NCBI RefSeq assembly: GCF_025717515.1
Contig: NZ_JAJIRN010000009.1
Span: 248,001-312,000 of the forward strand
Source: Roseateles oligotrophus
GTDB lineage: Bacteria; Pseudomonadota; Gammaproteobacteria; Burkholderiales; Burkholderiaceae_C
Length of the DNA: 64,000 bases
Direction of reading: 5' to 3'
Below are positions 40,432 to 62,072 of this stretch, piece by piece. Under the pieces are notes generated by a model, which worked only from the letters and a program-made list of their open reading frames with translations, did no database searches and had not been told where the DNA came from. A program made the translations under genes and the position numbers. Position 1 is the first letter of the stretch, and every line of letters starts with the position of its first letter.

Positions 40432-40534
40432 TCGGCGTTGACGGCTCGGGCCATCACCTTTATTGACGCAAGGCCGTATTTTTTGTCTCGCTGTGGCACA
40501 GTGCTGGCTTCTATGCAGAGCAAGGACGGGAACG

Positions 40535-41602
40535 GTGGCAAGCAAAGCTGGGTCTAGCCCGACGATTGTTGATGTGGCCGAACAGGCCGGCGTGTCGATC
40601 AAGACCGTCTCGCGCGTGCTCAACAAGGAAGCCGGGGTGCAGGAGAAGACCCGTGAGCAGGTGCTCAAGGTCGTCGCTGCACTGAAGTACCGGCCCAAAC
40701 TGGCGGCGCGCAGCATGGGCGGTGGGCGCTCATTTTTGATCGGTCTGCTCTATTACGACCCGAGCGCGGCCTTTGTCGGCGGGGTGCAGCAGGGCGCGAC
40801 CTTGCGCTGCCGCGAGTCGGGCTATCACCTGGTCGTCGAGTCCTTGCATAACGACGCCCCCGACATCTACAACCAGGTCGACCGCATGGTCTCGGCGCTG
40901 CGCCCGGACGGCATGATTCTGACGCCGCCGCTGTGTGATAACCCCAAGGTTCTGCAGGCACTGCGCGACAACGAAACGCCATTCGTGCTGCTCTCTCCGG
41001 GCCAGCAGCCGGCGGATCAATTCAGCGTGCGCATGGACGATGAACTCGCGGCCGAAGAAGTCACGAATCTATTGATCAGCCTCGGCCACGAACGCATTGG
41101 TTTCATCAAGGGCGCGCCCGATCAGGCGGCCTCGGAGCTGCGTTACCGGGGTTTTGTGCGGGCGATGCGCTCGCATGATTTGAGCGTCGAGGAGAGCTTG
41201 GTGTGGGAGGGCGACTTCACCTTCCCGAGCGGCGTCGAAGGGGCGCACAAGCTCTTGAGTCGCAGCGTGCGGCCGACGGCGGTGTTCGCCAGCAATGACG
41301 ATATGGCTCTGGGCGTGCTGGCGGCGGCGCAACGCTTGGGGCTGAATGTGCCGGCCGATTTGTCGATTGCGGGCTTTGATGATTCCAGCGCGGCCAGCCT
41401 GGTCTGGCCGCCGCTGACCACGGTGCGCCAGCCGACCCATGAGATGGCCAGTGTGGCGGTGGAAATGCTGATCGCCGCCAAGGGCAATGACGCCGAGGCG
41501 GCGACGCCGCAGAGTTCGCACCGGGTGCTGCCGCATCAACTGCTGGTGCGCGATTCCAGCCGCGCCTTGCACTCAAGCCCGGCGCCCAAGAAGAAGGCTT
41601 GA
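40535..41602 (+). CDS. LacI-family transcriptional regulator of the beta-glucan locus
   Basis: A 355-aa LacI repressor. The helix-turn-helix and hinge are at about 10-60 (TIVDVAEQAGVSIKTVSRVLNKE, then PKLAARSMGGG). The periplasmic-binding-protein-like sensor follows, with VFASNDDMALGVLAAAQRLG and SIAGFDDSSAA. The GTG start has AAGGA eight bases upstream. It converges on the halogenase/receptor operon, ending 16 bp from it. The palindromic 12-bp operators upstream of the two divergent operons about 9 kb away are of LacI type, so this gene is the obvious candidate repressor. The inducer is probably glucose or a beta-glucoside. Confidence 0.88.
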   Translation: MASKAGSSPTIVDVAEQAGVSIKTVSRVLNKEAGVQEKTREQVLKVVAALKYRPKLAARSMGGGRSFLIGLLYYDPSAAFVGGVQQGATLRCRESGYHLVVESLHNDAPDIYNQVDRMVSALRPDGMILTPPLCDNPKVLQALRDNETPFVLLSPGQQPADQFSVRMDDELAAEEVTNLLISLGHERIGFIKGAPDQAASELRYRGFVRAMRSHDLSVEESLVWEGDFTFPSGVEGAHKLLSRSVRPTAVFASNDDMALGVLAAAQRLGLNVPADLSIAGFDDSSAASLVWPPLTTVRQPTHEMASVAVEMLIAAKGNDAEAATPQSSHRVLPHQLLVRDSSRALHSSPAPKKKA

Positions 41603-41618: not shown

Positions 41619-43883
41619 TCAGGATGCCAGTTTGGCGCTCTTGAAGAACGCGTTGACGGTCAGGCGCCCCAGCCCCGCTTGATAGGCTGCGGGCGAGGCC
41701 TGGATGTCGCCGGAATGGAAGATGCTGCCGTCGTAAAAAACCGCGCGGTTCCATTTGGCGGGCACGCGCCCTATCACCTCGAAGTAGCGGTTGCTCTGCG
41801 TCATATAGCCGGCCGGAATGCCGTATTTGCTGCCGAATTCGCTGCCGGCCAGGGTCTTCGCGTCCGCCAGGAAGGCCTGCGTTTCCTGCTCGGACATCAA
41901 GGAGCGGAACAAGACGGTGCCGCCGAGCTGCTCGTCACCGAACAGATAGTGGACCAGCGCGCACATCATCTCCCCGGGCTCCAGCCCTGAGTCGTCCCGG
42001 TGGCAGGTGCGCTGGCGGGCGTCCAGCGTTGTGCCGTCCTGGGTGACGCGCGAAAAGCGCCCATACATGCCAAGCGGCGGGCCGGCCCGCAGGCGGCCGC
42101 GCAGATGATCGCGGAAGTAATCATCCAGCTGAGCGGCCATGGCGGCGGGCAGGTCCAACTGCGGGCCGGGGTAGGGGTGGCCGGCAGGAATATGGAACTG
42201 ATTCGAGACCGACTGCGCCAGGCTCACCAGCCCATCCGGGTTCAGCACAAAGTCATCGATGACGAAGACCTCTTGGCCGTTGCTCAACTGGATGGTCTGA
42301 ATATTGGGTTGCGGATTGAGCTGCAAGGACGGGGCGCCGGGCTTGGCTTCTGCCGGCTTGGGCACACCACAAAAGCGGGCGACATAGTCCTGATGCTTGG
42401 GCAGTTTGATCAGGCTGCGCGCCGCCTCCTTGCGGATCTCGCCGAGGAATTCGCTCAGGTCCGCGTCGGCCATCCGGCGTGTCACCGGGTGGTGGGCGCT
42501 GGGGCTGATGCCCTGGCCCATCATCACCTGAATCCAGGAGTTATCCCGGAACAGCTCATCGGAATCGAGGCAGACGCGGGCCGTGTCTTTGAAGAGCTGG
42601 ATCCGATGCGCGAGCAGCTTGGGCACCGCCATCTCGCGGCAATCGCGCCAGAACTGCGCGTCGCTGCGATTGTTGACGTGGTAATGCAGGATGATGAAGT
42701 CACGAATGGTTTCGATCGCGCGGCGCGACTGATCGTTGTACTCGTCGATATCGCTTTGGCAAACGCCATCGGCCGGGAACATCTGAATCAGGCGCGTCAG
42801 GCCGCGCTGAATCAGGTGAATGCTGGTGGACTCAATCGGTTCCAGAAAACCGCTGGACAGGCCGATGGCGACGCAATTGCGCTTCCACACCAGCTCGCGC
42901 TGACCCGGCGTGAACTTGATGACGCGCGGCGGGCGTATCACCTCACCCTGCACATGGGCCAGCAATGCGGCCTTGGCCGCCTCGTCATCCAGATGCTTGC
43001 TGCTGAAGACCAGGCCATTGCCGACCCGGTGCTGCAGCGGAATCTGCCATTGCCAACCCCAGGGATGGGCGATTGAGCGGGTGTAGGGCAGGGCCTCGCC
43101 GACCGAGGCGGTCTGCACGGCCACGGCGCTGTCGCAATGCAACCATTCCGACCAATCCTGATAGGCCACGCCGAGGGTCTCGCCCAGCAGCAAAGAGCGC
43201 ATGCCGGTGCAGTCGATGAACAGATCGCCTTCGATCAGCGAGCCATCATTCAGGCTCAGCCCGGTGATGCCGCCATGGCTCGCTTCGCTGCTGACTTCGC
43301 TATGCACCTTGACGATCTTGCCCTCGATGCGCTGCACGCCCAGCGCCTCGGAGTAACGGCGCAAATACTGGGCATAGAGCGTGGCGTCGAGGTGATAGGC
43401 GTAGTTCAGACCGGTGTTGGGCAGATGGGCGAAGCGCTTGTCCATCGCCGCGCGCAGTTCCAGGCAATAGTCGCCGTAGTCGCTGGCCAGGCCGCGCTTG
43501 CGGCCCTCCAGCCAGAAATGCTGGAAGCCGGCCGTCCAATGCGGCTTGCCGGTGGTGCCGAAGGAATGGAAATAGTCCTCGCCGACATTGCGCCAGTTCT
43601 CGAAACTGATGCCCAGCTTGAAGGTGGCCTGCGTGGCGGCCATGAACTCGCGCTCGTCGATGCCGAGGATCTCGTGAAAGAAATGCAGGGTCGGGATGGT
43701 CGCTTCGCCGACGCCTATGGTGCCGATTTCTTCCGACTCGATCAGGCGGATGTCGTACAGCCTCCCTAAGCTCTTGGACAGGCCGGCCGCCACCATCCAG
43801 CCGGCGGTGCCGCCGCCAGCGATGACGATGCGGCGCACCGGCTTGGAGCTGTAGGGGATCGCATTTTCAGCGGTCTTGTTCAT
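41619..43883 (-). CDS. Flavin-dependent halogenase fused to a DUF6445-like 2OG-oxygenase domain
   Basis: A 754-aa two-domain protein. Residues 1-505 form a tryptophan-halogenase-type flavoenzyme: FAD motif GGGTAGWM (23-30), GVGEATIP, catalytic lysine K89 (FKLGISF), WQWQIP (277-282), and EPIEST with E351-S352, equivalent to the catalytic Glu-Ser of PrnA/RebH. Residues 530-754 resemble DUF6445, a 2-oxoglutarate/Fe(II) oxygenase-like fold, with a possible metal triad H628-x-D630 and H723. It is the last gene of the leftward operon. Both active sites look complete, so it may halogenate and hydroxylate, or act on one substrate twice. The substrate is unknown; related locus-linked enzymes act on indoles in vitro, as I recall. 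Confidence 0.83.
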   Translation of the reverse strand: MNKTAENAIPYSSKPVRRIVIAGGGTAGWMVAAGLSKSLGRLYDIRLIESEEIGTIGVGEATIPTLHFFHEILGIDEREFMAATQATFKLGISFENWRNVGEDYFHSFGTTGKPHWTAGFQHFWLEGRKRGLASDYGDYCLELRAAMDKRFAHLPNTGLNYAYHLDATLYAQYLRRYSEALGVQRIEGKIVKVHSEVSSEASHGGITGLSLNDGSLIEGDLFIDCTGMRSLLLGETLGVAYQDWSEWLHCDSAVAVQTASVGEALPYTRSIAHPWGWQWQIPLQHRVGNGLVFSSKHLDDEAAKAALLAHVQGEVIRPPRVIKFTPGQRELVWKRNCVAIGLSSGFLEPIESTSIHLIQRGLTRLIQMFPADGVCQSDIDEYNDQSRRAIETIRDFIILHYHVNNRSDAQFWRDCREMAVPKLLAHRIQLFKDTARVCLDSDELFRDNSWIQVMMGQGISPSAHHPVTRRMADADLSEFLGEIRKEAARSLIKLPKHQDYVARFCGVPKPAEAKPGAPSLQLNPQPNIQTIQLSNGQEVFVIDDFVLNPDGLVSLAQSVSNQFHIPAGHPYPGPQLDLPAAMAAQLDDYFRDHLRGRLRAGPPLGMYGRFSRVTQDGTTLDARQRTCHRDDSGLEPGEMMCALVHYLFGDEQLGGTVLFRSLMSEQETQAFLADAKTLAGSEFGSKYGIPAGYMTQSNRYFEVIGRVPAKWNRAVFYDGSIFHSGDIQASPAAYQAGLGRLTVNAFFKSAKLAS

Positions 43884-43892
43884 GCGCTTGTC

Positions 43893-44906
43893 CTAACGAT
43901 TCAGTCGGTTCAGCAGCACCGAGCGCAGATGGCGCGCCCGGTCCGAGGTGATGGGTGCCAGCACGCCTTGGGCGGCGGGCGGGATATGGGCGGCGGTGCT
44001 TTCGCCCGCCTTGAAAACATAATGATCAAACAAAGCGGCCCAAGCCTGGCGCTGGGCCGGTGGCAGGTCGCGCAGCGTCATCAGCGCCAGCATCAAGGTG
44101 TTGATCGGCGGATCCATGAAGGCCGGGCTTTGGCGCCACCAGAAATTCACCAAGGCGCTGATGGGTTCCAGCGCCTCCACCGCATGCCACCACAGGCTGG
44201 GGATGAAGACCGCGTCGCCCGCGGCCAACTCCACCGTCTGCGCCTGCTCCAGCGCCTGCGCGTAACGCGGGAAACGATCGAAGTCGGGCTTGGCGATGTC
44301 GACCAGGCTGATGGCTTGGCCGGCCGGTGTCAGATCCAAGGGGCCGATATAGAGATTGCCGACCTGCTCGGGCGGGAACAGTGTGAAGCGGCGCCGCCCG
44401 GCGACGACACAGGCGAGGTTGTCCGGCAGGTCGAAATGGGCGGCCACCCGTACCCGGTTGCCGAGCCAAAGGCTGACCAAGGGATCAGCCACATTCAGCG
44501 GCAAATCATTGGCCCGGCGCAGGCCGGGGAAGGAACCGTCGAGCTCGGTGGAGCCGAGGTAGAGCGCGGGCGGAAGCGGCGAATTTTTCTGCGCCAGCAG
44601 CTCGTCCAGCAGCGCGCCGAAGCCGGCAATCTCGCGCCGATAGTTGAAGCCGCTGAAATCGGCGTTGTAGAAAAAGCGTCCGTCGATTTCGGGCGCACCC
44701 CGCCAGAGCCCGACCTTGGTGTCGGCCCCGGCCGAGCCAAAGCCGCGCAGATAGTCGCAAAAATGCTGATCGGACTGCTGCGCCGCCTGCACCATCGGCC
44801 AATGCCGCACCAGGCCCCGCAGCAGCACCGGCTCGGTGCTCTGCAGCAAGTCGGCAGGCAAGGCGTCGGCGCGCACATCGCTGCGCTCCCGCATGGGCCT
44901 CGTCAT
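43893..44906 (-). CDS. Cupin-like/JmjC-type oxygenase-like protein
   Basis: A 337-aa protein of the cupin_8 type. The metal-site pattern H157-x-D159 (HFDLPDN) and H241 (SLWWHAVE) is intact, with RRRFTLFPPEQ in between, as in JmjC-like Fe(II)/2-oxoglutarate enzymes. GNLYIGPLDL and MDPPINTLML are locus-typical stretches. It lies between the SapC and fused-halogenase genes with 3- and 9-bp gaps, clearly one operon. Such proteins recur next to SapC and halogenases in TonB-receptor loci of Xanthomonas and Caulobacter relatives; their reaction has not been established to my knowledge. Confidence 0.78.
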   Translation of the reverse strand: MTRPMRERSDVRADALPADLLQSTEPVLLRGLVRHWPMVQAAQQSDQHFCDYLRGFGSAGADTKVGLWRGAPEIDGRFFYNADFSGFNYRREIAGFGALLDELLAQKNSPLPPALYLGSTELDGSFPGLRRANDLPLNVADPLVSLWLGNRVRVAAHFDLPDNLACVVAGRRRFTLFPPEQVGNLYIGPLDLTPAGQAISLVDIAKPDFDRFPRYAQALEQAQTVELAAGDAVFIPSLWWHAVEALEPISALVNFWWRQSPAFMDPPINTLMLALMTLRDLPPAQRQAWAALFDHYVFKAGESTAAHIPPAAQGVLAPITSDRARHLRSVLLNRLNR

Positions 44907-44909
44907 GCT

Positions 44910-45611
44910 TCAAGCCTCCCGGGCGAGTTGCAGTCGGATCAGATTGTGCAAATTGGACATCGAGGCGATGGCCATATAAATCGGCAGCAGATAGTCGGCC
45001 TGGTGCAGCAAGCCCACCGTCTTTTCGTCGAGCGCCGCGAGGCGTTCTTCGTGAATGGTGTGCAGGCCGACCAGGCGGCCATGGCTGCCGTCCGGGCGCT
45101 CGACATCCAACACAAAAGGCTCGAGCAAATCATGGGCGAGCAGGGCCTCGACGAAGGCGGGCGTGGCTTGCAGGCCTTCGTGCAGCGCCTTCAAGACGGA
45201 GTTGGCGTGCTCGAGAAATTCGGTGCTGCCGCCCTGGGGCAAAAACACCGCCTCACCCTCGGCGCCTTGACCGATGCGCGGGCTCGCCATGTCGACCAGC
45301 ATTCTGAGTTCATCCTCGTTGACGCCAATCATGAAGGGCTCGCGCTGCATGGCCAAGGGCAGATAGGGCACGGTCCAGCCTTCGGGCCCGAGGAAGAGGT
45401 TCTGGCCCTCCTGCAAGCCGAGCAGGGCGAGCGGCTGCATCTGCCCGTCGGAGTTTTTCTGGAACACGATCGGGTAATGCACTTGCAGGCGGCGGAACTC
45501 GTCCGGCGTGGCAATGCAGGACATCTGTGCGTCGCCCCATTCGGCGCCTCGGCGGGTGATGATGCGCAGGTCTTTGTGGCTGATGTTGTCGAGCAGGACT
45601 GGGTTTTTCAT
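44910..45611 (-). CDS. SapC family protein
   Basis: A 233-aa soluble protein of the SapC family (PF07277-like). Typical stretches are HYPIVFQKN near residue 45, the LGLQEGQNLFLGPEGWTVPYLPLAMQREPF core, and LAHDLLEPFVLDV. It has no signal peptide or membrane helix. The name comes from a Campylobacter S-layer/peptide-resistance context that does not fit here; in sugar loci its function is unknown. The chosen ATG (MKNPVLLDN) gives the family N-terminus, while the frame is open 16 codons upstream. It sits between the halogenase and cupin genes. Confidence 0.83.
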   Translation of the reverse strand: MKNPVLLDNISHKDLRIITRRGAEWGDAQMSCIATPDEFRRLQVHYPIVFQKNSDGQMQPLALLGLQEGQNLFLGPEGWTVPYLPLAMQREPFMIGVNEDELRMLVDMASPRIGQGAEGEAVFLPQGGSTEFLEHANSVLKALHEGLQATPAFVEALLAHDLLEPFVLDVERPDGSHGRLVGLHTIHEERLAALDEKTVGLLHQADYLLPIYMAIASMSNLHNLIRLQLAREA

Positions 45612-45639
45612 GGGGATTGAGTTCAGGCTTAAGTGGACG

Positions 45640-47187
45640 TTAGGACATGCCGTGCACATGGATGTGCTCGATCAAGTCGCGGTGGCGCGGCAAGCCACCG
45701 AGCAGGCGTTTGGTGGCGGTCGTGACTTGCTGGAAGCTGGCCTGCGCCTGCGCGAGCCTTGCCGTGCGCGGCGCCGGCAAGTTCGGTTTGAAGCCCATGC
45801 CGTAGAGCACATATTGGTAGCTCGCAGCGGGGAAGACTTCGTCGACGCGGAACAGATCGTTTTTGAACGGCGCCCGGTGGCGCCAGAGCTGCAGCAATTC
45901 GGCCAGGCGTTCGGGCATCGATTCGGCTTGGGCGTGCTCGCGCCAGTAGGCTGAATCATTGCGCTGGTTGAGCGCGTAATGGAGCTTGAGAAAATCGATG
46001 ATGCGGGCCCAGCGGTAGTCGAAGGCTTCATTGAAGCGCTTGGCCACCAGGTCCATATCGGCGCGATTGGCGGGCATTTCATCGCGGATCATCGCGGCGG
46101 ACAACTCGACCAGCGCGAGCGCCGAGGCCTCGAGTGGTTCGATGAAACCCGAGGACAGACCGATCGCCACGCAGTTGCGCTGCCAGAAGCGCTCGCGGTA
46201 GCCCGGCGAGAAGGGGATGTGGCGGGCCGAGGGCAAGTCGGCGGCGGCCGGGCCACCGCTGCGCTCGATATGCTTGCGCAGCGCCTGTTCGGCCGCCTCG
46301 CGGCTGGTGTGGGCGCTGGAGTAGACCAGGCCGAGGCCGCGCCGGCTGGGCAGGCCGATGTCCCAAGTCCAGCCTTCGGCATGGGCCGTGGCGATCGTTG
46401 CCGAGGCCAGCGGCACTGGTTTGTCTGCATAGGGCACTTGCAAGGCCAGCGCGCTATCGTTGAACATCACATGCTGCTGCGAGCGCAGGGCGACGCCGTA
46501 ATGCTGGCCGATCAGCAAGGCCTTCAGGCCCGAGCAGTCGATGAAGAGATCGCCCGCTATGTCGCCATGACTGCGGGTTCGCAAGGCTTTGATGTCGCCA
46601 TTCTCGTGCGCGAGCACCTGGGTGACTTCGTCCGACACATGCCTAACGCCCAGTTTCTCCGTCGCATGCTGGCGCAGCAAGACGCCCAGCTTGACGGCAT
46701 CAAAGTGGTAGCCGTAATTGATGGCGCCGCCAAACTCCGGCGTCGTCACTTGCTTCGGCGCCAGGCTCGCATTGCACACATGCGGCTGCGGGCTGACGCA
46801 TTCGGCAAAGCCTGGCTCGCTGCCGGCGTGCAACCAAGCGCCGACCAGGTCGATCTCGCCATGGCCTTGCGGCAGCGAAAAGGGGTGGTAGTAACGGTCG
46901 TTCTCATGTTCATTGACCCAGCCGTCAAAGCGCGAACCTTGCTTGAAGGCGGCGTCGCATTGACGCAGCAGGTCGACTTCGCGCAGGCCGATGCGCTGCA
47001 GGGTCTCACGCATCGACGGCCAGGTGCCTTCGCCGACCCCGATGGCGGGTGCGTCCGGCGACTCGATCAGGCTGATCTGCAGCGCGTCGGCTTGCGTCCC
47101 GCCATGCTCGGCGGCCAACAAGGCCGCAGTCAGCCAGCCGGCCGAGCCGCCACCCAAGACCACGATGCGGCGCACCGCTTGCGTCAT
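45640..47187 (-). CDS. Flavin-dependent (tryptophan-type) halogenase with altered active site
   Basis: A 515-aa member of the tryptophan halogenase family: FAD motif GGGSAGWL, GVGEGTWPS, catalytic lysine K82 (FKQGSRF), YHFDAVKL, FIDCSG and WTWDIGLP. The helix bearing the catalytic Glu reads EPLEASAL: E353 is kept, but the usual Ser after it is A354, and GVGEATIP is changed to GVGEGTWP. This may alter halide or intermediate binding, or turn it into a non-halogenating flavoenzyme. It is the second gene of the operon, 115 bp after the receptor and behind a terminator-like hairpin, and 28 bp before sapC. Very different from the other two halogenases of the window. Confidence 0.83.
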   Translation of the reverse strand: MTQAVRRIVVLGGGSAGWLTAALLAAEHGGTQADALQISLIESPDAPAIGVGEGTWPSMRETLQRIGLREVDLLRQCDAAFKQGSRFDGWVNEHENDRYYHPFSLPQGHGEIDLVGAWLHAGSEPGFAECVSPQPHVCNASLAPKQVTTPEFGGAINYGYHFDAVKLGVLLRQHATEKLGVRHVSDEVTQVLAHENGDIKALRTRSHGDIAGDLFIDCSGLKALLIGQHYGVALRSQQHVMFNDSALALQVPYADKPVPLASATIATAHAEGWTWDIGLPSRRGLGLVYSSAHTSREAAEQALRKHIERSGGPAAADLPSARHIPFSPGYRERFWQRNCVAIGLSSGFIEPLEASALALVELSAAMIRDEMPANRADMDLVAKRFNEAFDYRWARIIDFLKLHYALNQRNDSAYWREHAQAESMPERLAELLQLWRHRAPFKNDLFRVDEVFPAASYQYVLYGMGFKPNLPAPRTARLAQAQASFQQVTTATKRLLGGLPRHRDLIEHIHVHGMS

Positions 47188-47210
47188 ATCAATGCCCGCC
47201 CTTTATTTGA

Positions 47211-47235
47211 AAAATCGACCCGCTGGGTCGATTTT
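47211..47235 (-). terminator. Intra-operon terminator-like hairpin between receptor and halogenase
   Basis: AAAATCGACCC and GGGTCGATTTT form an 11-bp stem with a 3-nt loop, followed on the minus strand by more T. It lies in the 115-bp gap after the receptor gene and probably lowers transcription of the downstream enzyme genes relative to the receptor. Confidence 0.75.
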
Positions 47236-47250
47236 GAATCCATCAATGTT

Positions 47251-47291
47251 GGCCGAAGCGACCTTGCCTTTGGAGCATGGCCGCTTCGGCC
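47251..47291 (-). other. Second intercistronic hairpin
   Basis: GGCCGAAGCG and CGCTTCGGCC form a 10-bp stem with a 21-nt loop, just past the receptor stop and before the terminator-like hairpin. It could protect the receptor mRNA from 3' exonucleases. Confidence 0.5.
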
Positions 47292-47302
47292 CGGCTACTC
47301 GT

Positions 47303-50300
47303 TTAGAACGAGTAGCGCGCTCCGACCAAATAGCGTCGCCCGGTCTGCGTCACCGATACTAACTGCTCTTTCGTGCGGCCATGTTGGCGAATCACCCCGT
47401 CGTTCAGGTTCAGGAAGTCAGCCTGGAAGGTGAGGTTCTTCGTCATCTTGTAGGCAATCGTCATGTCCATCTGACCGTAGGGCTCGGTATAGATCGGGTT
47501 ATTGCCCGCGCCATCGGTGGTCGCTGCCAAGAACTCGCCACGCCAGTTGTAGGCACCGCGAATCGAGAAGCCGCTGCCCTCATAGAAGCCCACCAGGTTG
47601 TAGGAATTGCTGACACCGACCAGGGCCGATTGCGCCGCGGTGCTGTGGTTGTCGTAGGACAAGCCGGACGACACCTTGGTGTAATTGCCCGCGACGCCGA
47701 AGCCGCTATTGCCGAATAGGTGCTGCGCGTTCAGCTCGATGCCGCTCAAGTTGTCGCCCTTGGCGTTCGACGGCGTGGTCACCGCAAATTGCAGCAATGG
47801 ATCGGTCGCCTGTCCGACGATGGTGCCCTGGATTTCGCCGGCTGCATTGACGCCGGTCTTGGTCACGCCCGGCTGGCCGTTGAAGTTGTTGAAGATGTAG
47901 TTGCGCTGGCATTTCGGATCGGTCGCCGAGCATCCGCTGGCTATTGCCGCAAGGTAGTACTTGCCCCCAATCGGCGTATGCACTTGACCGACCGGCTGCT
48001 TCACCGTGGTGCTGGCGATGAAGTTGGTGATGTTCTTGCGGAACAGACCGGCGGCTACATAGCTGGACTTGTTGTAGTAATACTCAAGCGAGGTGTCCCA
48101 GTTCTTCGACAGCAGTGGCAGCAAGGCCGCGTTGCCGGTCGAACCGGTGCCGCCGCCAGCGTTGGCCGTGTCGCCCACCGTCACGCCGCCCGCCAGCGAA
48201 GCCCAGCCGGGGCGACCGATGGTTTCGCCGTAGCTGGCGCGCAGTTTCAGATTGGCCGACAAGTCAGCATCCCAGTCGATGCTCGGCAACCAGTAGTTGT
48301 ACTTGCCGCTTGATGTGCCGAAAGTCGTGCCACCGGACTGCACCGCGATCTCATTCAAAGACCCCCAGCTTGCACCGGTCAGGGCCAGCACTTGGGAGCT
48401 TGATTCGACCTTGGTTTGTTCGCGCCGCAGGCCGACCGACACATTCATAGGAATGGCGGTGTCGAAGCTGTGGTCGTACTGCAAATAGCCGCTGGTCGAC
48501 TTTTCGGTCGTGCGCAGGTCGACGCCCTTGGTGAAATCGGTATATGCCGAGAAGTAGGCTTCAGCTTCCGCGCGCGTCAATGGCGCCGGGTGGCTGGATG
48601 TGCCCGACTTCATCGCGATCTCGATCGCGCGGGTGCGCATCGCGTTGAAATCAAAGGAATAGAAGTTCTGCATCAGGCGCGGATCATCGCTGCCCTTGAC
48701 CTGTCCGAAATAGCCGGGCAGGTTTTCGGTGTTGAACAAATTGGCGGCGTAATCACCCTGTTTGCCCACGCCACCCCAGTCGCCGTTTTGGTGGTTGACC
48801 GAAGCCGAGCGGTTGTTCACCTTGGTGCCGGACAAACCGAAATTCAGCTTGTCGTCGGCGCTGAGTTTGTAGGCAGCACGGAACTGCGCCTGATCGATCT
48901 TCTGATCGCTCAGCGCGTTGTCGAAACGGGTGCCGCCGACCTGGATTTTGTTCGTGTCGAACACCGTGTTCGGCAGGCTCAGGATGGGCAGGTCCTGGTT
49001 GTAATAGCCGTAGGCATCGCCTTGGCTGAACATGCCGGCACCGATCACCGAATAGGTTCCGTAAGGGCTGTTGGGTGCCGTCTTGGCGGTGGAACTGTGA
49101 GCATCGAGCTCGACCTTGAGCTGCTCGCTGAGCTTCCATTCCGCGTTGAAGCCGGTGGAACGGTTCTTTGCCTTCTCGCCATATTGACCGCCGTCGAGGG
49201 CGAGGTCATGGTCTTTGGCGGGGAACTGTGCCGAGTAGGAAATCGGGCCGGCAACGGGGCCGTCGGTCCAGGCCGACGGGCCGCCCTGGAAGTTGAACCA
49301 GGTGCCGACCTGCACGTTCTTCTTGTTGACCGTGTTGTCGGCCATCGTGTAGTCGAGCGTGAACTTCAGGTCCTTGCTCGGCGCGTATTGCAGCACCAGT
49401 TGGCCGTTGGTGCGCTCGCGCTCCAAAGCGGTCAGCGCATAGCGCAGGTCGACCGGCGTCGAGTACAGGGTGTTGGCGCCTGGGCGATTGGTGATCTGGG
49501 CGTAACCGGGCTCGCCCTTTTTCGGAATCGCGCCCCAGCCGCTTTCGTCCCCGAGGAAGGGGTGCCAGCCATTTTGCGTATAGGCCTTGTTGGAGCCTGA
49601 GTCGCGCCGCGAGAAGCTGCCGCTGATCGAGATGCCGAGGGTGCCGTTGGCAAATGTCTCGCTGTAAATGCCGGACAAATCAGGCGTTAGGCTGCTGCCC
49701 TGATACATATCGGGCAGGCGACCATCGGATGCATCGTGGTTGGCCTTGACGGAGAAGCTGGCAATTCGACCCTTGCTGTCGAGCGGGCGCGCGGTCTTGA
49801 TATTGATGGTGGCGCCAATGCCGCCGGCCGGGCTTGCCGCGCGGCTGGTCTTGAACACCTCGATCGCGGAAACCGAGTCGGACGAGAGATTGGCGAAGTC
49901 GAAGGCGCGCGAGGAGTTGGCCGAGCTGCCGCCCTCCGCACTATTGAGCAAGGCGCCGGGCATCTGGCGGCCGTTCAACAGCACCATATTGAAGTCGGCA
50001 CCGATACCGCGGACGGTCACGCGGGAGCCTTCGCCGCTTTGACCGCGCTCGATGGAGACACCGGAAATGCGCTGCATCGATTCCGCAAGATTGGTGTCCG
50101 GGAACTTGCCGATGTCTTCCGCCACGATGCCGTCCACCACGCCGTGGTTTTCACGCTTGAGCGAAACGGCGGACTCGAGCGACCTGCGGATGCCGCTGAC
50201 GACCACCGTATCCAGTTGCTGGGTATCGGCTGCGGGCGCTGGCGTGGCCGCTTGCTGGGCATGTGTGGCGGGCGCCAACATGGTCAGCAAGGCCGCGCAG

Positions 50301-50380
50301 GCGCTCGCAATGGGTTTCAAGTTCAGGGAACGCCGCTGTGCGGTGTCGCTCTGAAGATGTTGTGTCTGAGCTCTTTTCAT
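47303..50380 (-). CDS. TonB-dependent receptor of the beta-glucan locus
   Basis: A 1025-aa outer-membrane receptor. Signal peptide to about residue 42 (ending ATHAQQ), then TonB-box-like LDTVVVSGIR, plug domain with GKFPDTNLAESMQRISGV, VTVRGIG and VLLNGRQMPG, and a barrel ending in VGARYSF. This is the IRRSLESA type found in sugar-utilisation loci of Caulobacter, Xanthomonas and relatives. It is the first gene of the leftward operon, with a leader of about 200 nt and GGAGACAT before the ATG. With GH1, GH5 and glucokinase genes opposite, it probably imports cello-oligosaccharides or another beta-glucan fragment. Confidence 0.88.
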   Translation of the reverse strand: MKRAQTQHLQSDTAQRRSLNLKPIASACAALLTMLAPATHAQQAATPAPAADTQQLDTVVVSGIRRSLESAVSLKRENHGVVDGIVAEDIGKFPDTNLAESMQRISGVSIERGQSGEGSRVTVRGIGADFNMVLLNGRQMPGALLNSAEGGSSANSSRAFDFANLSSDSVSAIEVFKTSRAASPAGGIGATINIKTARPLDSKGRIASFSVKANHDASDGRLPDMYQGSSLTPDLSGIYSETFANGTLGISISGSFSRRDSGSNKAYTQNGWHPFLGDESGWGAIPKKGEPGYAQITNRPGANTLYSTPVDLRYALTALERERTNGQLVLQYAPSKDLKFTLDYTMADNTVNKKNVQVGTWFNFQGGPSAWTDGPVAGPISYSAQFPAKDHDLALDGGQYGEKAKNRSTGFNAEWKLSEQLKVELDAHSSTAKTAPNSPYGTYSVIGAGMFSQGDAYGYYNQDLPILSLPNTVFDTNKIQVGGTRFDNALSDQKIDQAQFRAAYKLSADDKLNFGLSGTKVNNRSASVNHQNGDWGGVGKQGDYAANLFNTENLPGYFGQVKGSDDPRLMQNFYSFDFNAMRTRAIEIAMKSGTSSHPAPLTRAEAEAYFSAYTDFTKGVDLRTTEKSTSGYLQYDHSFDTAIPMNVSVGLRREQTKVESSSQVLALTGASWGSLNEIAVQSGGTTFGTSSGKYNYWLPSIDWDADLSANLKLRASYGETIGRPGWASLAGGVTVGDTANAGGGTGSTGNAALLPLLSKNWDTSLEYYYNKSSYVAAGLFRKNITNFIASTTVKQPVGQVHTPIGGKYYLAAIASGCSATDPKCQRNYIFNNFNGQPGVTKTGVNAAGEIQGTIVGQATDPLLQFAVTTPSNAKGDNLSGIELNAQHLFGNSGFGVAGNYTKVSSGLSYDNHSTAAQSALVGVSNSYNLVGFYEGSGFSIRGAYNWRGEFLAATTDGAGNNPIYTEPYGQMDMTIAYKMTKNLTFQADFLNLNDGVIRQHGRTKEQLVSVTQTGRRYLVGARYSF

Positions 50381-50868: not shown

Positions 50869-51023
50869 GGCGCCGCTGCACAGACCAGAGTCTCGCCGCA
50901 GCGCAGACGAACTCGGCGGCGGAGCGGTTTTAAGCCGCTCGCACCGAGCCGTCGTCTGCCCAGCCGGCCAAAGCCTGTTTCCGGGCCTAAGGCGCGATTG
51001 CCCCTAACTTGAATCCTGAACCC

Positions 51024-52382
51024 ATGACCGCCAACTGCATTTTCAAGGCCGAAGACACCGATTTGGCGAGCCGCTTCCCCGCTCACTTTCAATGGGGTTC
51101 GGCCACCAGTGCGGCCCAAATTGAAGGGGCTTCGGCGCTCGACGGCAAGGGCGCCTCGATCTGGGATAGTTTTTGCGGCCAGCCCGGGCGCATCAACGAT
51201 GGCTCCCACATTGATGTCGCTTGCGACCATTACCACTTGTTCCACGAAGACATCGCGCGCATGAAGTGGCTGGGCCTTGAGTCCTACCGTTTTTCGATCT
51301 CCTGGCCGCGCGTGCAAGCGCTGGGCGAGGGCGCCTGGAACGAAGCAGGCTTTGCTTTCTATGGTCAATTGATCGACGCCTTGATCGAAGCCGGCATCAA
51401 GCCCCATGTCACGCTCTATCACTGGGATTTGCCGCAGGCGCTGCATGACAGCATCGGCGGCTGGATGTCGCGCGATATCGTTCCGCGCTTTGCCGCCTAT
51501 GCCGCCGAAGTGGCGCGTCGTTTCGGCTCGAAGGTCGCCAGCATTGCGACCTTGAATGAGCCCTGGTGCGTGGCGACCCTGGGTTATGAAACCGGCCAAT
51601 TCGCGCCGGGCATGCGCAGCCGTAAAGCCGCGATGCAGGTCTCGCATCATTTGATGATGGCGCATGGCGCGGCCATGCTGGCCATGCGCCCGCTCACGCA
51701 GACCCAGCTCGGCGTGGTCTTGAACCACACGCCGGCCTTTCCGGCCGAGCCGACCGAGGCCGATCGCCAAGCCGCCCGGATCGATGATGGATTGAATGTG
51801 CGCTGGTATATGGACCCGATTTTTCGGGGTAGCTATCCGGCCGACGTGATCGAGCATCTCGGTGATGACGCGCCGCAAATCGAGGCGCAAGACCTGACCC
51901 TGATTCAGCAGCCGCTGGATTTTCTGGGCGTGAATTTCTATACCCGCAGCTTCATCAGCACGCAAACGCCGGCCGTGCCGGCGCCGGGCAAATTGGGCTT
52001 CACCGATATGGGCTGGGAAATCTACCCCAAGGCCTTGACTCAGCATCTGGTGCGCATCACCCGTGAGTACTCGCCGCCGCCCATCTTCATTACCGAAAAC
52101 GGTATGGCCAATGCCGATCAGGTGGTGGATGGCCAGGTTGCCGATGTCGAGCGCATCGCCTATCTGAGGGCGCATCTGGGCGCCTTGGCGCAGGCGATGG
52201 AGTTGGGTGTGGATGTACGGGGCTATTTCTACTGGAGCTTGCTCGACAACTTCGAGTGGAACTCCGGCTATCTCAAGCGCTTTGGTCTATTTCACGTCGA
52301 CTACAGCAATCAGCAGCGCTTGGCCAAGGCCAGTGCGCATTGGTATCGGGCGCTGATTGAAGTGTTCGGGCAAGCACGATGA
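51024..52382 (+). CDS. GH1 beta-glucosidase
   Basis: A 452-aa glycosidase that should cut cellobiose and short beta-glucosides to glucose. The acid/base is E179 (TLNEPW), the nucleophile is E358 (ITENG), and the N-terminal FQWGSATSAAQIEGA and C-terminal YFYWSLLDNFEW stretches are classic GH1. No signal peptide, so it acts in the cytoplasm after import by the MFS protein. The ATG (MTANCIFKAED) was preferred to a TTG five codons upstream. First gene of the rightward operon; its stop overlaps the glucokinase ATG. Confidence 0.95.
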   Translation: MTANCIFKAEDTDLASRFPAHFQWGSATSAAQIEGASALDGKGASIWDSFCGQPGRINDGSHIDVACDHYHLFHEDIARMKWLGLESYRFSISWPRVQALGEGAWNEAGFAFYGQLIDALIEAGIKPHVTLYHWDLPQALHDSIGGWMSRDIVPRFAAYAAEVARRFGSKVASIATLNEPWCVATLGYETGQFAPGMRSRKAAMQVSHHLMMAHGAAMLAMRPLTQTQLGVVLNHTPAFPAEPTEADRQAARIDDGLNVRWYMDPIFRGSYPADVIEHLGDDAPQIEAQDLTLIQQPLDFLGVNFYTRSFISTQTPAVPAPGKLGFTDMGWEIYPKALTQHLVRITREYSPPPIFITENGMANADQVVDGQVADVERIAYLRAHLGALAQAMELGVDVRGYFYWSLLDNFEWNSGYLKRFGLFHVDYSNQQRLAKASAHWYRALIEVFGQAR

Positions 52383-53371
52383 ATTTGCCGTCTACAGCGG
52401 CGGGCTATCCGCGCCTGCTCGCCGACGTCGGCGGTACCAATGTCCGCTTTGCCAGCCAATTCATCGCTAACGGCCCATTGCAGCAGACCGGCGTTTATGC
52501 CTGCGCGGATTTCGAGTCGCTCTGCGACGCGATCTGCCACCATCTATGGCGCGAGGGCTTGGGCCGGCCGCGCTCCGGCGCCATCGGCATTGCAACGCCC
52601 ATCACCGGTGACCATGTGCGCATGACCAATCACCGTTGGACGTTTTCGATCAAGGCGATGCAAGAGGCCTTGGGTCTACAACGGCTGCTGGTGCTGAACG
52701 ACTTTTCGGCGCTGGCCTTGGCCTTGCCGACCCTGCATGCCGACGCACGCTGCCAGGTCGGCGGTGGCGTGGCCGTGGCCGGTGCGCCGATCGCGCTGAT
52801 CGGCCCCGGCACCGGCCTGGGCGTATCGGGCCTGCTGCCCTCGATTGATGGCGGCGGCCTGGTGCCGCTCGGCGGCGAAGGCGGGCATGTGACGCTGAGT
52901 TCCTGCGACCCCGAGGAGCAGGCGGTACTGAACATCCTGCATCGGCGCTTTGGCCATGTTTCGGCCGAGCGGGCCTTGTCCGGCCCTGGGCTTGAGAATC
53001 TCTACCTGGCCTTGGCGCAAGTGCAGGGTCACAAGGTTGAGGCCTTGCAGGCGCAGCAGGTGACGGCGGCGGCGTTGGCCCGTAGTGACAGGATTGCAGA
53101 TGGTGCGCTGGACTTGTTTTGCAGCTTGCTGGGTGGCGCGGCAGGCAACTTGGCCTTGACGCTGGGCGCGCGCGGCGGTGTGTATATTGGCGGCGGCATC
53201 GTGCCTCGCTTGGGGCTCCGTTTCGCCGAATCGAAGTTCCGCCAGAGTTTTGAGGCCAAGGGGCGCTTTCGCGCTTATTTGAGCGAGATCCCGAGCTATG
53301 TCGTACAAGCCAGCGAGCAGGCCGCCTTGCAGGGCGCCTGCCGGGCCCTTGACGTCGGCATGCCGCATTGA
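52379..53371 (+). CDS. glk: Glucokinase (Glk family)
   Basis: A 330-aa hexokinase-fold enzyme that phosphorylates glucose with ATP. Motifs: DVGGTNVRFA near residue 16, LVLNDFSALALALP, GPGTGLGVSGL, and PLGGEGGHVTL with the substrate-binding Glu and His. It belongs to the bacterial Glk group, not ROK. Placement after the GH1 gene, with a 4-bp ATGA overlap, shows it handles the glucose released by the beta-glucosidase. Confidence 0.93.
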   Translation: MNLPSTAAGYPRLLADVGGTNVRFASQFIANGPLQQTGVYACADFESLCDAICHHLWREGLGRPRSGAIGIATPITGDHVRMTNHRWTFSIKAMQEALGLQRLLVLNDFSALALALPTLHADARCQVGGGVAVAGAPIALIGPGTGLGVSGLLPSIDGGGLVPLGGEGGHVTLSSCDPEEQAVLNILHRRFGHVSAERALSGPGLENLYLALAQVQGHKVEALQAQQVTAAALARSDRIADGALDLFCSLLGGAAGNLALTLGARGGVYIGGGIVPRLGLRFAESKFRQSFEAKGRFRAYLSEIPSYVVQASEQAALQGACRALDVGMPH

Positions 53372-53409
53372 ACACCGGGCAAAGCCCTAACCCTTGGTCG
53401 ATACACAAG

Positions 53410-55107
53410 ATGACAAGCAAGCCAGCTTCAACCCTGCGCAATATGTTTTGGGTCGCCTCGCTCTATCTGGCGATGGGCATCCCCTACAGCGTGATCAACG
53501 GCACCGCGGTGCGGATGTTCAAGTCTTTGGGCTTCCCGGACAGCCAGATCACCGTGGCGGTGGGCAGTATCGGGATCGCTTGGTCGCTGAAGCCACTCTG
53601 GGCGGCCTTTCTGGACATGTATCGCACCAAAAAATTCTTCGTGCTGACGATGGAAATGCTCTGCGGGCTGCTGTTCGCGGCGATCGCCATGTCGGTCGGC
53701 GAGCCGGGCTTTTTTCAGATCAGCATCGCGCTGTTGTGGGTGGCGGCATTCGCCTCTTCGACGCAAGATATCTGCGCCGACGGCATCTATCTGACCGCGC
53801 TCGATAGGCCCACTCAGTCGCGTTTCGCGGGTTTGCAGGGTGCGTTTTGGGTGCTGGGCAAGGTGCTCGCCACCGGCTTGCTGATCTCGGTGCTCTTCAA
53901 GATGCAGACCAGTCAGGGCTGGGCCAACGAGACGATGTGGCGCAACGTGATGTTGATCTGCGCGGGGGTGATGGCTTTGCTTGCGCTGTATCACTTGTTC
54001 ATCTTGCCCACCGGCAGTGTGTCCGAGCGCCCAACCGGCACCGCTCAAGTATTCAGTGACTTCCTTGGTACGGCGACGACCTTCTTTCATAAGCGGGCGT
54101 TTTGGGGAATGATTGCCTTCGTCTTCCTCTACCGCTTGGGTGAAGGCCTGATCCTGATGGAAGGGCAGTTGTTCTTGCAGAGCAGCACCGAGCAAGGCGG
54201 CCTTGGTTTGACGGCGGGGCAGGTCAGCGAGATCGATGCGGTCTATGGCACCGTCGCCAGCATCATCGGCGGCCTCTTGGGTGGGGCTTTCGCCGGCAAG
54301 CTGGGTCTGCGCCGCTCGCTCTGGATACTCGGTCTGAGCCTGAATATTCCGCACTTCACCTATCTGTTGATGAGCCATTACGCTGCGGCCGGGCAGGGCT
54401 TGGACTACAGCGCCATCGTGACCCTGGTCAGCATCGAGAAGTTCGGCTACGGCTTCGGCATGGTGGGCAATATGATTTATCTGATGCAGCAGCTCGCGCC
54501 GGGCCGCTCGACGATGACGCATTACGCCTTCGCGACCGCCTTGATGAATTTGGTGCTGGTGCCGACGGCGATGATCTCCGGGCCGCTGGCCGAATGGCTG
54601 GGTTTTTCGAGCTTCTTTCTGGTCGTGATGTTTGCGTCGCTGCCCTCTGTTTTGGCGGCGTGGCGGGCGCCATTTCCGCAACAAGAGGACGAGGCGAAGC
54701 CGCTGTTTGATGCCGACGCGACAGGCGTTCAGGTGACGGTGGATGACCCGACGCGCCTGACCGCACAAGAGCAGCAGGTTCAATCGCTGGCGGGGCGCGC
54801 GTCGATGTTTGCGATGTTGAGCATCTTGACGCTGTTGATCGTCGACGCCAAGGTGCTGGGCTCTTTGCAAGGCGCCGCCCCCGGCGCGGGTGGCCTGCAA
54901 CTCTTGCTTTTGCTGGGGCTGCTATTGCCCAAACTCTATTTCGCGCGGCGCTGTTTCACCCTCGCTGCGCGGGCCGCTGAAGTCGCCGCGCCATGCGGCG
55001 AGCGGCATTATTTGGGCAATGCCCGCGGCGCCAAGATCGCCACGCTGATTTGCGCCGCTGTCTCCTTGTCGGTGTTGGCCTTTTGCGCGCACAGACTCCT
55101 GTCGTAA
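53410..55107 (+). CDS. MFS transporter (AmpG/PAT-like), probable oligosaccharide permease
   Basis: A 565-aa inner-membrane protein with about twelve to fourteen helices. It has PYSVINGTAVRMFKSLG in the first loop, DMYRTKKFFVL after an early helix, and QDICADGIYLTAL, which fit the AmpG/acetyl-CoA-transporter-like part of the MFS. A polar stretch near 435-475 separates the last two helix groups. The ATG was chosen; a TTG 14 codons upstream would overlap the glucokinase stop. In this operon it most likely imports cellobiose or other beta-glucan fragments from the periplasm; AmpG-type muropeptide transport is the alternative. Confidence 0.82.
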   Translation: MTSKPASTLRNMFWVASLYLAMGIPYSVINGTAVRMFKSLGFPDSQITVAVGSIGIAWSLKPLWAAFLDMYRTKKFFVLTMEMLCGLLFAAIAMSVGEPGFFQISIALLWVAAFASSTQDICADGIYLTALDRPTQSRFAGLQGAFWVLGKVLATGLLISVLFKMQTSQGWANETMWRNVMLICAGVMALLALYHLFILPTGSVSERPTGTAQVFSDFLGTATTFFHKRAFWGMIAFVFLYRLGEGLILMEGQLFLQSSTEQGGLGLTAGQVSEIDAVYGTVASIIGGLLGGAFAGKLGLRRSLWILGLSLNIPHFTYLLMSHYAAAGQGLDYSAIVTLVSIEKFGYGFGMVGNMIYLMQQLAPGRSTMTHYAFATALMNLVLVPTAMISGPLAEWLGFSSFFLVVMFASLPSVLAAWRAPFPQQEDEAKPLFDADATGVQVTVDDPTRLTAQEQQVQSLAGRASMFAMLSILTLLIVDAKVLGSLQGAAPGAGGLQLLLLLGLLLPKLYFARRCFTLAARAAEVAAPCGERHYLGNARGAKIATLICAAVSLSVLAFCAHRLLS

Positions 55108-55117
55108 ACAGGTCGTC

Positions 55118-61800: not shown

Positions 61801-61962
61801 GCGGCCTACAACGTCAACAAGGAACTGAGCTTGACCGCTTCGGTGCTGAACCTGACCAAGGAAGAGTCGCGCTCCCACCTGGGCAACGACACCAAGGATC
61901 GCTTCTACTCGAATGGCTATGCCGGTCGTATCGTGTATGCGGGCTTGAACTACAAGTTCTGA
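58855..61962 (+). CDS. TonB-dependent receptor of the second halogenase locus
   Basis: A 1035-aa outer-membrane receptor. Signal peptide to about residue 35 (SGAQAQ), TonB-box-like METVVVTGFR, plug with GKFPDKNVADALQRVPGV, VSVRGLSS and a barrel ending in VYAGLNYKF. It is the same FRSSIEKSL type as the beta-glucan receptor but clearly a different paralog. AGGAGACAGCAC precedes the ATG. With a halogenase and a GH2 beta-mannosidase-like gene downstream, it probably takes up manno-oligosaccharides or a related glycan. Confidence 0.88.
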   Translation: MTTRTPFAARQHRWPVTPIATAVGAALLALSGAQAQTAPADKPSEKKADASQMETVVVTGFRSSIEKSLDQKRNANAIIDVVTAEDVGKFPDKNVADALQRVPGVIVERSGGEGKNVSVRGLSSELTLTQLNGNYIATAESNGDPTRSFNYMLMPSNMLSSAELFKTPEARIDEGGVGGTVILHTRRPLDVKANSGFVNAEGTWADTSNKTDGQFAGQYAWHDEAKRFGVLVGYTQQKRTTRTMGASTENWQWYADDYKAHPATDVNGSPSGMNSRWWGQSGFYDQGGKYYSNFMMPTSVNLNVKTEERERKGGQLTLQFKPVDKLTLTGNYFRFDLSQNSQTNTLKVPEWNLARYDGDGNWPRGRLLDQLTFDKSGTLVTGAKYSAHPGKTYYCNEAQAKAGGQQPGGWGPDDCTVPTPQITGSYNREKALSQTADFEAEWKGDSLEAVFKGGRTWAKGGPEMQFGMPIKPRMQDQSGNWVLGNTASAWSLAGTPTMTFAPELMANLQKGIGEIDLGSTSSSWTRNSTEQNYAQADFTWNTDLGLLDSLQFGLKYRDGGTHRNTGNNYWVCKGADPADYNKRYQAGCDSAANKFQPQFLYGDSLGNLAGGISASAFPAINYPAYISYLNQTYGAMQTRNEDNFVYNVDEKIYSGYLQANVKVERLRGNVGLRLVRTKQHADSTDQVTNYKDYFHNGADGKPAPCLAGGKPALGAPAGSGCVSGFTKLPDSLSRTESFEVSSLDRTYNDVLPSVNLAYDLSKDLVLRAAASKVISRPSYGDIAAPGGLQYYSQEYVNDRRLIGGGDQQGWFGGGSNKELEPYKATQFDLGLEWYLRRGSVLGANLFRKNVSNFTVPVNQNVDLNVGGQAVTVQNYSTSAGGRNGVSQGVELFAQHTLDFGLGFQLNYTYNKTNQAAITLQNGKTIGSSPLVGSAKNQANVTVFYETDSYLARVSYNRRGEVVGGLVNGLNVYQEPYSQIDLNAAYNVNKELSLTASVLNLTKEESRSHLGNDTKDRFYSNGYAGRIVYAGLNYKF

Positions 61963-62010
61963 TCTTTCTTGTTCCTCGACCCTCGCAGCAACCAATGCAT
62001 GGGGGTTTTT

Positions 62011-62040: not shown

Positions 62041-62072
62041 CTTTTCTTAATTCAAACGATTGATCACCAGCG

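Follow-up and report, generated by a model that had tools for sequence, protein, structure and literature searches.

The window, a 64,000-nucleotide stretch of the Roseateles oligotrophus contig NZ_JAJIRN010000009.1, contains a five-gene operon on the minus strand at 41619-50380. The coordinates given in the original prediction were exact and its gene families were confirmed with Pfam and NCBIfam profiles (Table 1). The first gene encodes a TonB-dependent receptor (TBDT) that scored 601 bits against TIGR01782, for which the curated cut-off is 310, and that carries a signal-peptide-like stretch as judged from its N-terminus and hydropathy. The divergent genes, previously read as a beta-glucan pathway, were borne out by profile search as GH1, glucokinase, MFS and GH5.

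Table 1. Features of the operon and its surroundings in the window.
Feature	Coordinates	Strand	Assignment or remark
TBDT, operon gene 1	47303..50380	-	TIGR01782 (TonB-Xanth-Caul); Plug + barrel
F2, predicted PF04820 flavin-dependent halogenase	45640..47187	-	E 6e-117; nearest solved structure 2pyx
SapC	44910..45659	-	PF07277, E 3e-64; AlphaFold2 model
Cupin_8 protein, FIH/JMJD5-like	43893..44906	-	PF13621, E 1e-69
F1-DUF6445 fusion protein	41619..43883	-	PF04820 E 1e-182 + PF20043 E 2e-61
F1, predicted PF04820 flavin-dependent halogenase half of fusion	42336..43883	-	Nearest solved structure 6y1w (Xcc4156)
DUF6445 half of fusion, predicted 2OG-Fe(II) oxygenase	41619..42335	-	Invariant HRD, H, R
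LacI-type regulator	40463..41602	+	Convergent with operon; Pfam profile search
GH1	51009-52382	+	Divergent from operon
Glucokinase	52379-53371	+	Divergent from operon
MFS	53368-55107	+	Divergent from operon
GH5	55118-56221	+	Divergent from operon
Divergent GH1, glucokinase, MFS, GH5 block	51009..56221	+	Beta-glucoside/beta-glucan use
Second TIGR01782 receptor of window	58855..61962	+	Paired with third halogenase
Third halogenase of window	62073..63596	+	Directly 3' of second receptor; 45% identity to F1

Both operon halogenases matched PF04820 over its full length (F1, 608 bits; F2, 392 bits; cut-off 21). The FAD motif GxGxxG was present in all 78 F1 rows and all 61 F2 rows, and the residues that we take to be catalytic, K89/E348/E351 in F1 and K82/E350/E353 in F2, were kept at 95% or more. 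The WxWxIP motif typical of flavin-dependent halogenases was found in 73 of 78 F1 rows and in 0 of 61 F2 rows; its last place was P or G in 57 of the 61, and F2 of the window has WxWxIG where WxWxIP was expected. The Trp4 motif of free-tryptophan halogenases, for which the available portion of PMC8269204 gives group A (PrnA, RebH) and group B forms, was detected in either form in none of the 78 F1 rows, the 61 F2 rows or the 21 enzymes of the halogenase-receptor pairs considered below, and less strict portions of the group A motif were likewise absent from all three sets. By this motif F1 and F2 are outside the free-tryptophan halogenase groups A and B. VirX1, a phage halogenase, is related to both.

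The Cupin_8 protein has a conserved HxD...H (H157, D159, H241), and its relatives in the PDB include FIH, JMJD5 and JMJD7, in support of its earlier description as JmjC-like. The signature of 2OG-Fe(II) oxygenases is HxD...H...R; in the DUF6445 half, H112, D114, H207 and R224 were invariant in 22 of 22 sequences. By sequence, DUF6445 had no relative in the PDB (best E 0.22), and no Pfam family other than its own matched it better than chance would allow. A Foldseek search with its model (pLDDT 88) gave 70 matches with E values of 0.001 or lower, with TM-scores of 0.34-0.52 by query length and OGFOD1 as the best match. Most of the 50 of these 70 matches that were listed are named as iron/2OG oxygenases, and one, 3bvc, is uncharacterised; others, AlkB, EvdO2 and P3H1, also belong to the 2OG oxygenases. 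DUF6445 is distant from these folds (9-16% identity among the matches listed). It was thus the fold comparison, where sequence searches had found no relative, that settled the DUF6445 half as a predicted 2OG-Fe(II) oxygenase and upheld the label of iron oxygenase. That the enzymes are catalytically dead, named beforehand as a possible refutation, was not supported, since the Lys/Glu residues of the halogenases and the HxD...H of the oxygenase domains are retained.

The PF07277 match spanned positions 1-220 of 220 in SapC (217 bits), whose true start is likely Met17, at 45611. Its AlphaFold2 model was confident and had no fold match at E 0.001 in the PDB or BFVD; by sequence there was no meaningful match either (best E 0.78). 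SapC is probably a soluble protein of unfamiliar fold.

The exact run TBDT-F2-SapC-Cupin-F1 was found in 53 of 80 SapC-anchored loci, with DUF6445 on F1 in 12 of the 53 and median gaps between members of -8 to 85 bases. Because the loci were collected with an operon-type SapC as query, all 80 necessarily contain SapC and the set leans towards that type of operon, a bias that is smaller in the sampled SapC loci and the 120-genome search described below; F2 was missing from 20 loci, F1 from two and the cupin from two. This arrangement exceeds chance. Halogenases are listed in sugar loci by regulon collections from Xanthomonas and Caulobacter, and related groupings had been predicted for relatives of both genera. 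Halogenases, SapC and cupin were indeed found with a TBDT in relatives including Xanthomonas; for Caulobacter the result covers the presence of the families only, with matches to PF04820, SapC, TIGR01782 and Cupin_8 in the control genome, Caulobacter vibrioides. Among 94 proteins in the flanks of 40 module loci the commonest families were LacI, GH3 and GH16, and the 25 commonest of 70 families included no scaffold-making and no aromatic-degradation family.

Whether SapC and halogenases co-occur had been proposed as a check, and the answer was divided. Among 79 sampled SapC loci, all five in TBDT operons had a halogenase, while the 74 outside such operons had neither a halogenase nor a receptor by the profiles used; SapC was consequently rejected as a general halogenase marker. 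SapC genes outside the module adjoined OEP (4), PPIC rotamase (4) and TBDT (2) among 66 hand-picked neighbours, which lean towards exported proteins. A class-wide SapC search was positive in six of 56 genomes; it was used for positions only, the neighbourhoods of G008, G042, G046 and G053 being left out. DUF6445 gave four matches in 120 genomes, one of them weak (the fusion of the window, one beside F1 in G012, and two in G139 that were not beside a known halogenase), and was rejected as an independent marker because these are too few to count.

A search of 120 genomes for full-length PF04820 genes (E <1e-40) found 31, in nine genomes. Twenty-nine of them lay within 5 kb of a TIGR01782 TBDT, against about 0.94 expected from random placement, and 15 lay within 1 kb. 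The genome of the window contributed eight of the 31, and elsewhere the figure was 21 of 23 within 5 kb. Seen from the halogenase side, the association held in eight of the nine genomes and in several receptor branches; seen from the receptor side, 36 of 58 TIGR01782 receptors in these genomes had no halogenase within 5 kb. Ten of 12 Cupin_8 genes in the same nine genomes were within 1.4 kb of a halogenase, and TBDT-halogenase pairs without SapC were common. In the genome of the window alone, pairs occur in beta-glucan, alpha-glucan (alpha-amylase), mannoside (GH2 mannosidase-type/GH31), amino-sugar-like and homogentisate loci. Halogenases in the sampled Pseudomonadota thus hardly ever occur away from a TIGR01782 receptor, irrespective of the sugar, and it is the receptor family that stays constant. 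The original prediction had asked why a glucan locus needs such chemistry; the distribution does not support a need of the glucan locus as such, since the pairs are also found in unlike sugar loci of one genome. Since the enzymes go with a family of receptors and not with a particular sugar, a possible role for them is chemical modification of the receptor itself, which the association singles out as one substrate candidate.

Distances between receptors and between their nearest halogenases were correlated over 21 pairs (r 0.40), a value reached by 0 of 10000 free permutations and 2 of 10000 within-genome permutations. The correlation was weaker over the 15 halogenase-only pairs (260 of 10000 within-genome permutations). 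Joint duplication of neighbours, without any reaction between their products, could produce such a correlation.

The explanation we favour, tentatively and at a little under an even chance, is a cytoplasmic module dedicated to the receptor, whose precursor it would halogenate or hydroxylate, with SapC as a handling factor. The two halogenases F2 and F1, the Cupin_8 protein (FIH-like) and the predicted oxygenase DUF6445 would work in the cytoplasm on aromatic and other side chains of the precursor, or of a peptide stretch within it, ahead of Sec export. SapC would keep hold of the unfolded chain or offer it to them. Once exported, the receptor would owe to these changes a tuning of how it binds ligands, how stable it is or how phages and bacteriocins recognise it; for other members of the family the module would be cut down to one or more halogenases, or be missing altogether. 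We know of no precedent for cytoplasmic modification of an outer-membrane barrel. The larger claim, that this is receptor maturation of a new kind, in which outer-membrane transporters are brominated or chlorinated and hydroxylated by dedicated enzymes with SapC as a new-fold escort, is possible but rather doubtful. The variable enzyme sets, the 36 of 58 receptors without a near halogenase and the lack of a tracking residue count against the favoured explanation.

That last point emerged from a search for a target residue. No column of the receptor alignment tracked the presence of F2 (55 receptors with F2 versus 19 without). Similarly, none separated 34 halogenase-linked rows (16 halogenase-only and 18 module; 33 different receptors, that of the window being entered twice) from 32 unlinked receptors; the receptor tree excluded G078:337652, which lies 6.3 kb from a halogenase, as well as three receptors that scored under the family cut-off. 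With no discriminating column, no fixed target residue is visible. W272, W361, W415, W535, W946 and H428 were invariant in 74 module receptors; in six unlinked receptors of the window's genome, W361, W415 and W946 were matched in one of six each and H428 in none. This invariance is no evidence of modification, because nearly all the module receptors come from one clade, and the sites are only candidates. The earlier idea of a target at the receptor is the best-fitting candidate, although no residue tracks the presence of the enzymes.

An unlikely alternative is that the product is a small aromatic, halogenated or hydroxylated and derived from indole, a phenol or a peptide, which is secreted as a receptor-linked ligand, signal or weapon. 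PF04820 enzymes elsewhere make natural products, which favours this account. In its favour, too, free indole is accepted in vitro by Xcc4156, BrvH and metagenomic relatives, as reported in the available portions of PMC7336383 and PMC8269204. Against it, the flanks hold no scaffold-making family among their 25 commonest, and the halogenases recur beside receptors of unlike cargo. Somewhat less likely is action on SapC, a TonB/ExbB-type partner or another cell protein, the receptor being only co-regulated. The failure of any receptor residue to track the enzymes fits such a target, and SapC accompanies them in all 80 anchored loci, albeit by query choice; however, SapC does not need the halogenases, given the 74 of 79 sampled loci without one nearby, and TBDT-halogenase pairs commonly do without SapC. 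A role in detoxifying or degrading plant aromatics that come off with the polysaccharide or are bound to it, raised in the original prediction, is a little less likely again: the beta-glucan setting and one pair beside homogentisate genes (L013) agree with it, but this genome also has pairs in alpha-amylase, mannosidase-type/GH31 and amino-sugar-like loci, which, like flanks with no aromatic-degradation family among the 25 commonest, speaks against it. Simple inheritance and regulation of the cassette as a unit, with enzymes serving general metabolism, is the least probable of all, for although joint transfer would also give short gaps and conserved order in a SapC-anchored set biased to the operon type, the association spans eight of nine genomes and several receptor branches, and the checked F1-position active-site residues are kept in all 21 pair enzymes.

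Receptor modification by such a module has partial parallels. FIH, JMJD5, JMJD7 and OGFOD1 act on proteins; these, together with TYW5, are related by sequence or fold to the Cupin_8 protein and DUF6445, in which the metal residues are kept and which differ from them in being bacterial and receptor-linked. QhpG and LodB are flavoproteins of tryptophylquinone (CTQ) biogenesis. QhpG is halogenase-like and acts on a protein side chain, dihydroxylating tryptophan in the cytoplasm before export, according to the available portion of PMC7876137. F1, F2 and the third halogenase are not members of the QhpG/LodB families, since their NCBIfam scores are far below the cut-offs (QhpG: F2 38.3 and F1 19.7 bits versus 240; the third halogenase matched LodB weakly, at 20.5 versus 400 bits, and QhpG weakly), and among the operon's Pfam assignments there is neither a QHNDH nor a LodA-type gene.

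Word searches found no TonB in the text of PMC7336383, no TonB, SapC or cupin in PMC5945002, and no TonB or SapC in PMC8269204. The available portion of PMC1790865 describes Xanthomonas carbohydrate-utilisation loci in which, as here, a TBDT occurs with a regulator, transporter and glycosidases; neither halogenase nor SapC was found by word search in PMC1790865 or PMC2996990. Literature searches, most subscription journals lying outside them, returned no paper joining SapC, halogenase and TonB-dependent receptor, or tryptophan halogenase, TonB-dependent and polysaccharide utilization; "SapC" in PMC4911050 is the name of a clay and not the protein. Halogenases in virus-receptor interplay are a speculation in the available part of PMC11337851, where halogenase and receptor are mentioned apart.

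SapC, a family of unfamiliar fold, gains a functional context from these loci. If the receptor is indeed modified, halogenation would be added to the list of changes made by bacteria to their own surface proteins, with altered recognition of the receptor by ligands, phages or bacteriocins as a possible purpose, and those bacterial 'tryptophan halogenases' for which tryptophan is not the substrate would gain a native one. The indole-active enzymes Xcc4156 (6y1w) and BrvH (6frl) are close relatives of F1 (690 and 465 bits). As given in the available portions of PMC7336383 and PMC5945002, both have open active sites and refuse free tryptophan, and in each case a peptide has been suggested as the substrate; the available portion of PMC7336383 states their native substrate to be unknown. 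They were studied as single enzymes, whereas F1 of the window has an extra DUF6445 oxygenase. A neighbouring second halogenase gene was reported for brvH in the available portion of PMC5945002, and the window likewise holds F1 and F2.

The five genes of the leftward operon lay where the original prediction had placed them. Pfam assigned a Plug/TonB barrel to the receptor (TBDT), Trp_halogenase to both flavin-halogenase-type proteins (F2 and F1), and SapC, Cupin_8 and DUF6445 domains, the last being fused to F1, the final halogenase of the operon. The receptor belonged to TIGR01782 (TonB-Xanth-Caul, NCBIfam). The minus-strand genes were tightly packed, with intergenic gaps of 115, -20, 3 and 9 bases, and the overlap at SapC vanishes if SapC starts at Met17. 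The operon was flanked by a convergent LacI gene and by divergent GH1, glucokinase, MFS and GH5 genes (Pfam), and its closest relatives were in Paucibacter and Roseateles, with SapC identities of 93% and less.

The module is real, widely conserved and little explained. A contig scan returned 241 stretches matching the pattern, of which 197 were confirmed; the best 80 of these 197 form a set biased by the use of operon-type SapC as the query. Among these best 80 loci, the layout TBDT-F2-SapC-Cup-F1 was found in 41 and the same layout with DUF6445 fused to F1 in 12. TBDT-SapC-Cup-F1 accounted for nine and its version with DUF6445 for six, TBDT-F2-SapC-F1 and TBDT-SapC-Cup for two each, and other layouts, some cut by contig ends, for eight. 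By tblastn, F2 was missing from 20 of the same 80 loci (contig ends counted in) and F1 and the cupin from two each, while DUF6445 was found in 21. Judged from record titles, hosts included Roseateles, Massilia, Lysobacter, Luteimonas, Xanthomonas and Steroidobacter. The TBDT-F2-SapC-F1 loci L047 and L048, which lack the cupin, were from Paucibacter, and the operon at locus L093 held two SapC genes (TBDT-SapC-Cup-F2-SapC-F1). Two Massilia loci (L090 and L095) had TBDT-SapC-Cupin with no halogenase within the stretch examined, and provide natural test cases for the roles of SapC and cupin without halogenases.

The module was frequently located in beta-glucan loci. Flanks were sampled as 94 proteins around 40 module loci, out of 119 listed; among the 25 of 70 flank families listed, the commonest were LacI (7), GH3 (6, counted through its C-terminal domain) and GH16 (5), and housekeeping genes were present too. 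From these families and the varied cargo of the loci tabulated below, the halogenases therefore track the receptor family, not a single sugar.

Halogenase-receptor loci and their cargo (L012 to L017 are loci of the window's own genome)
Locus	Coordinates	Features	Cargo
Window operon	41619-50380, minus strand	TBDT-F2-SapC-Cupin-F1 with DUF6445	GH1, GH5, glucokinase (Pfam)
L012	7370-15283	Second full TBDT-F2-SapC-Cupin-F1 operon, without DUF6445	GH30 and glucokinase adjoining
L013	7717-16397	Halogenase and TIGR01782 receptor; only pair of this genome in an aromatic-degradation context	Homogentisate dioxygenase, fumarylacetoacetase, MFS
L015			Three alpha-amylase-family proteins, glucokinases
L016			HGSNAT-type, MFS, two cupins; amino-sugar-like
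L017	Window 58855-63596, continuing from 58855	Second TIGR01782 receptor in the window, then third halogenase; no SapC or cupin adjoining	GH2 mannosidase-type, GH31
L269	4388-15056	One locus with receptor, four halogenases and Cupin_8 protein	Transporter-like gene adjoining

A search of 120 genomes gave at least 31 full-length PF04820 matches (E < 1e-40) in nine genomes, weaker and mostly partial matches being dropped; eight of the 31 listed were from the window's genome. Among those 31, 29 had a TIGR01782 receptor within 5 kb, compared with about 0.94 expected from random placement, and 15 had one within 1 kb. The two exceptions were a halogenase of locus L269 that is separated by 6.1 kb from the receptor there, and a halogenase of G166, a genome lacking TIGR01782 receptors. 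Conversely, the nine genomes held 58 TIGR01782 matches (60 rows, with two halves of one gene merged and one fragment dropped; three score under the family cut-off), and 22 had a listed halogenase within 5 kb. In the same genomes, 10 of 12 Cupin_8 genes (E up to 1e-10) were within 1.4 kb of a halogenase.

The enzymes of the module are members of known families. F1 was closest to Xcc4156 (6y1w), then 9luq and BrvH (6frl), and F2 to 2pyx and 9ltb. The active-site residues checked were kept in at least 95% of halogenase copies, as well as in all 21 pair enzymes, each a halogenase with a neighbouring TIGR01782 receptor. The DUF6445 residues HxD, H and R were invariant in 22 of 22 sequences, and its model (pLDDT 88) matched 2OG-Fe(II) oxygenases, OGFOD1 best, with low TM-scores of 0.34-0.52. 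Consistent with the fusion to F1, a free-standing DUF6445 gene directly followed F1 in one genome (G012, locus L198). Solved relatives of the cupin were FIH, JMJD5, JMJD7 and a protein listed as C2orf60 (TYW5). Counting the window's own copies, the Trp4 motifs, in both printed forms, were found in 0 of 78 F1 rows and 0 of 61 F2 rows; among the pair enzymes the count was 0 of 21. These two forms are reported to mark free-tryptophan halogenases, and halogenases without the motif reportedly accepted indole, not tryptophan (PMC8269204). Xcc4156 and BrvH, according to their descriptions, have open active sites, accept indoles and do not halogenate free tryptophan, and a peptide substrate was proposed for both (PMC7336383, PMC5945002).

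By eye, no signal-peptide-like N-terminus was seen in F1, F2, cupin or SapC, unlike the receptor, so the enzymes should be cytoplasmic. We tentatively propose, at slightly below an even chance, that the module modifies the receptor precursor in the cytoplasm. The receptor would be the substrate of the enzymes, modification would precede its export, and SapC would have a part in it. Gene association, gene order, intact active sites and independence of cargo are the direct observations behind this proposal. We know of no dedicated receptor-modifying system of such make-up. The nearest working precedent is QhpG (PMC7876137).

In a 66-row receptor tree, in which the window's receptor was entered twice, the sampled module receptors formed one clade, and halogenase-linked and unlinked receptors alternated on other branches. 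Distances among receptors correlated with those among their halogenases. The strongest results against receptor modification are that no target residue was found and that 36 of the 58 TIGR01782 receptors had no halogenase neighbour. No receptor residue was found to track either F2 presence or halogenase linkage. Barrels this distant aligned poorly outside the plug, so a target within a variable surface loop could escape this search.

A less biased sample of SapC gave 87 matches in 45 of 120 Pseudomonadota genomes, including three from the window's genome, two in TBDT-halogenase operons and one alone. Among the 84 others, 80 regions were examined (weak or partial matches G121:C164, G165:C221, G141:C407 and G149:C62 were left out), and the SapC frame was present in 79. 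SapC lay in a TBDT operon at five of these 79 loci, all five with a halogenase; the remaining 74 had no halogenase, cupin or TBDT-operon-type receptor by the profiles used. One of the 74, L201, adjoined a TBDT of a different kind. From 167 listed neighbours outside the module, 66 proteins were hand-picked at 43 of 44 representative loci (of the 74), and included four outer-membrane efflux proteins, four PPIC rotamases, two TBDTs, three response regulators, three mechanosensitive channels and numerous one-off families. To these, twenty single scans added an exoprotein of the two-partner-secretion type, together with some unrelated genes. This neighbourhood leans weakly toward exported proteins, and the neighbours were not chosen blind. 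A putative SapC is named together with SapDEF S-layer export genes in one paper (PMC6374484). The SapC model (pLDDT 90, pTM 0.86, built from 51 sequences) had no match in PDB or BFVD at E 0.001. A gene of 310-337 residues directly adjoined non-module SapC at L173, L175, L180, L181, L184, L185, L193 and L225, and in single scans was a PPIC-type rotamase at the first three.
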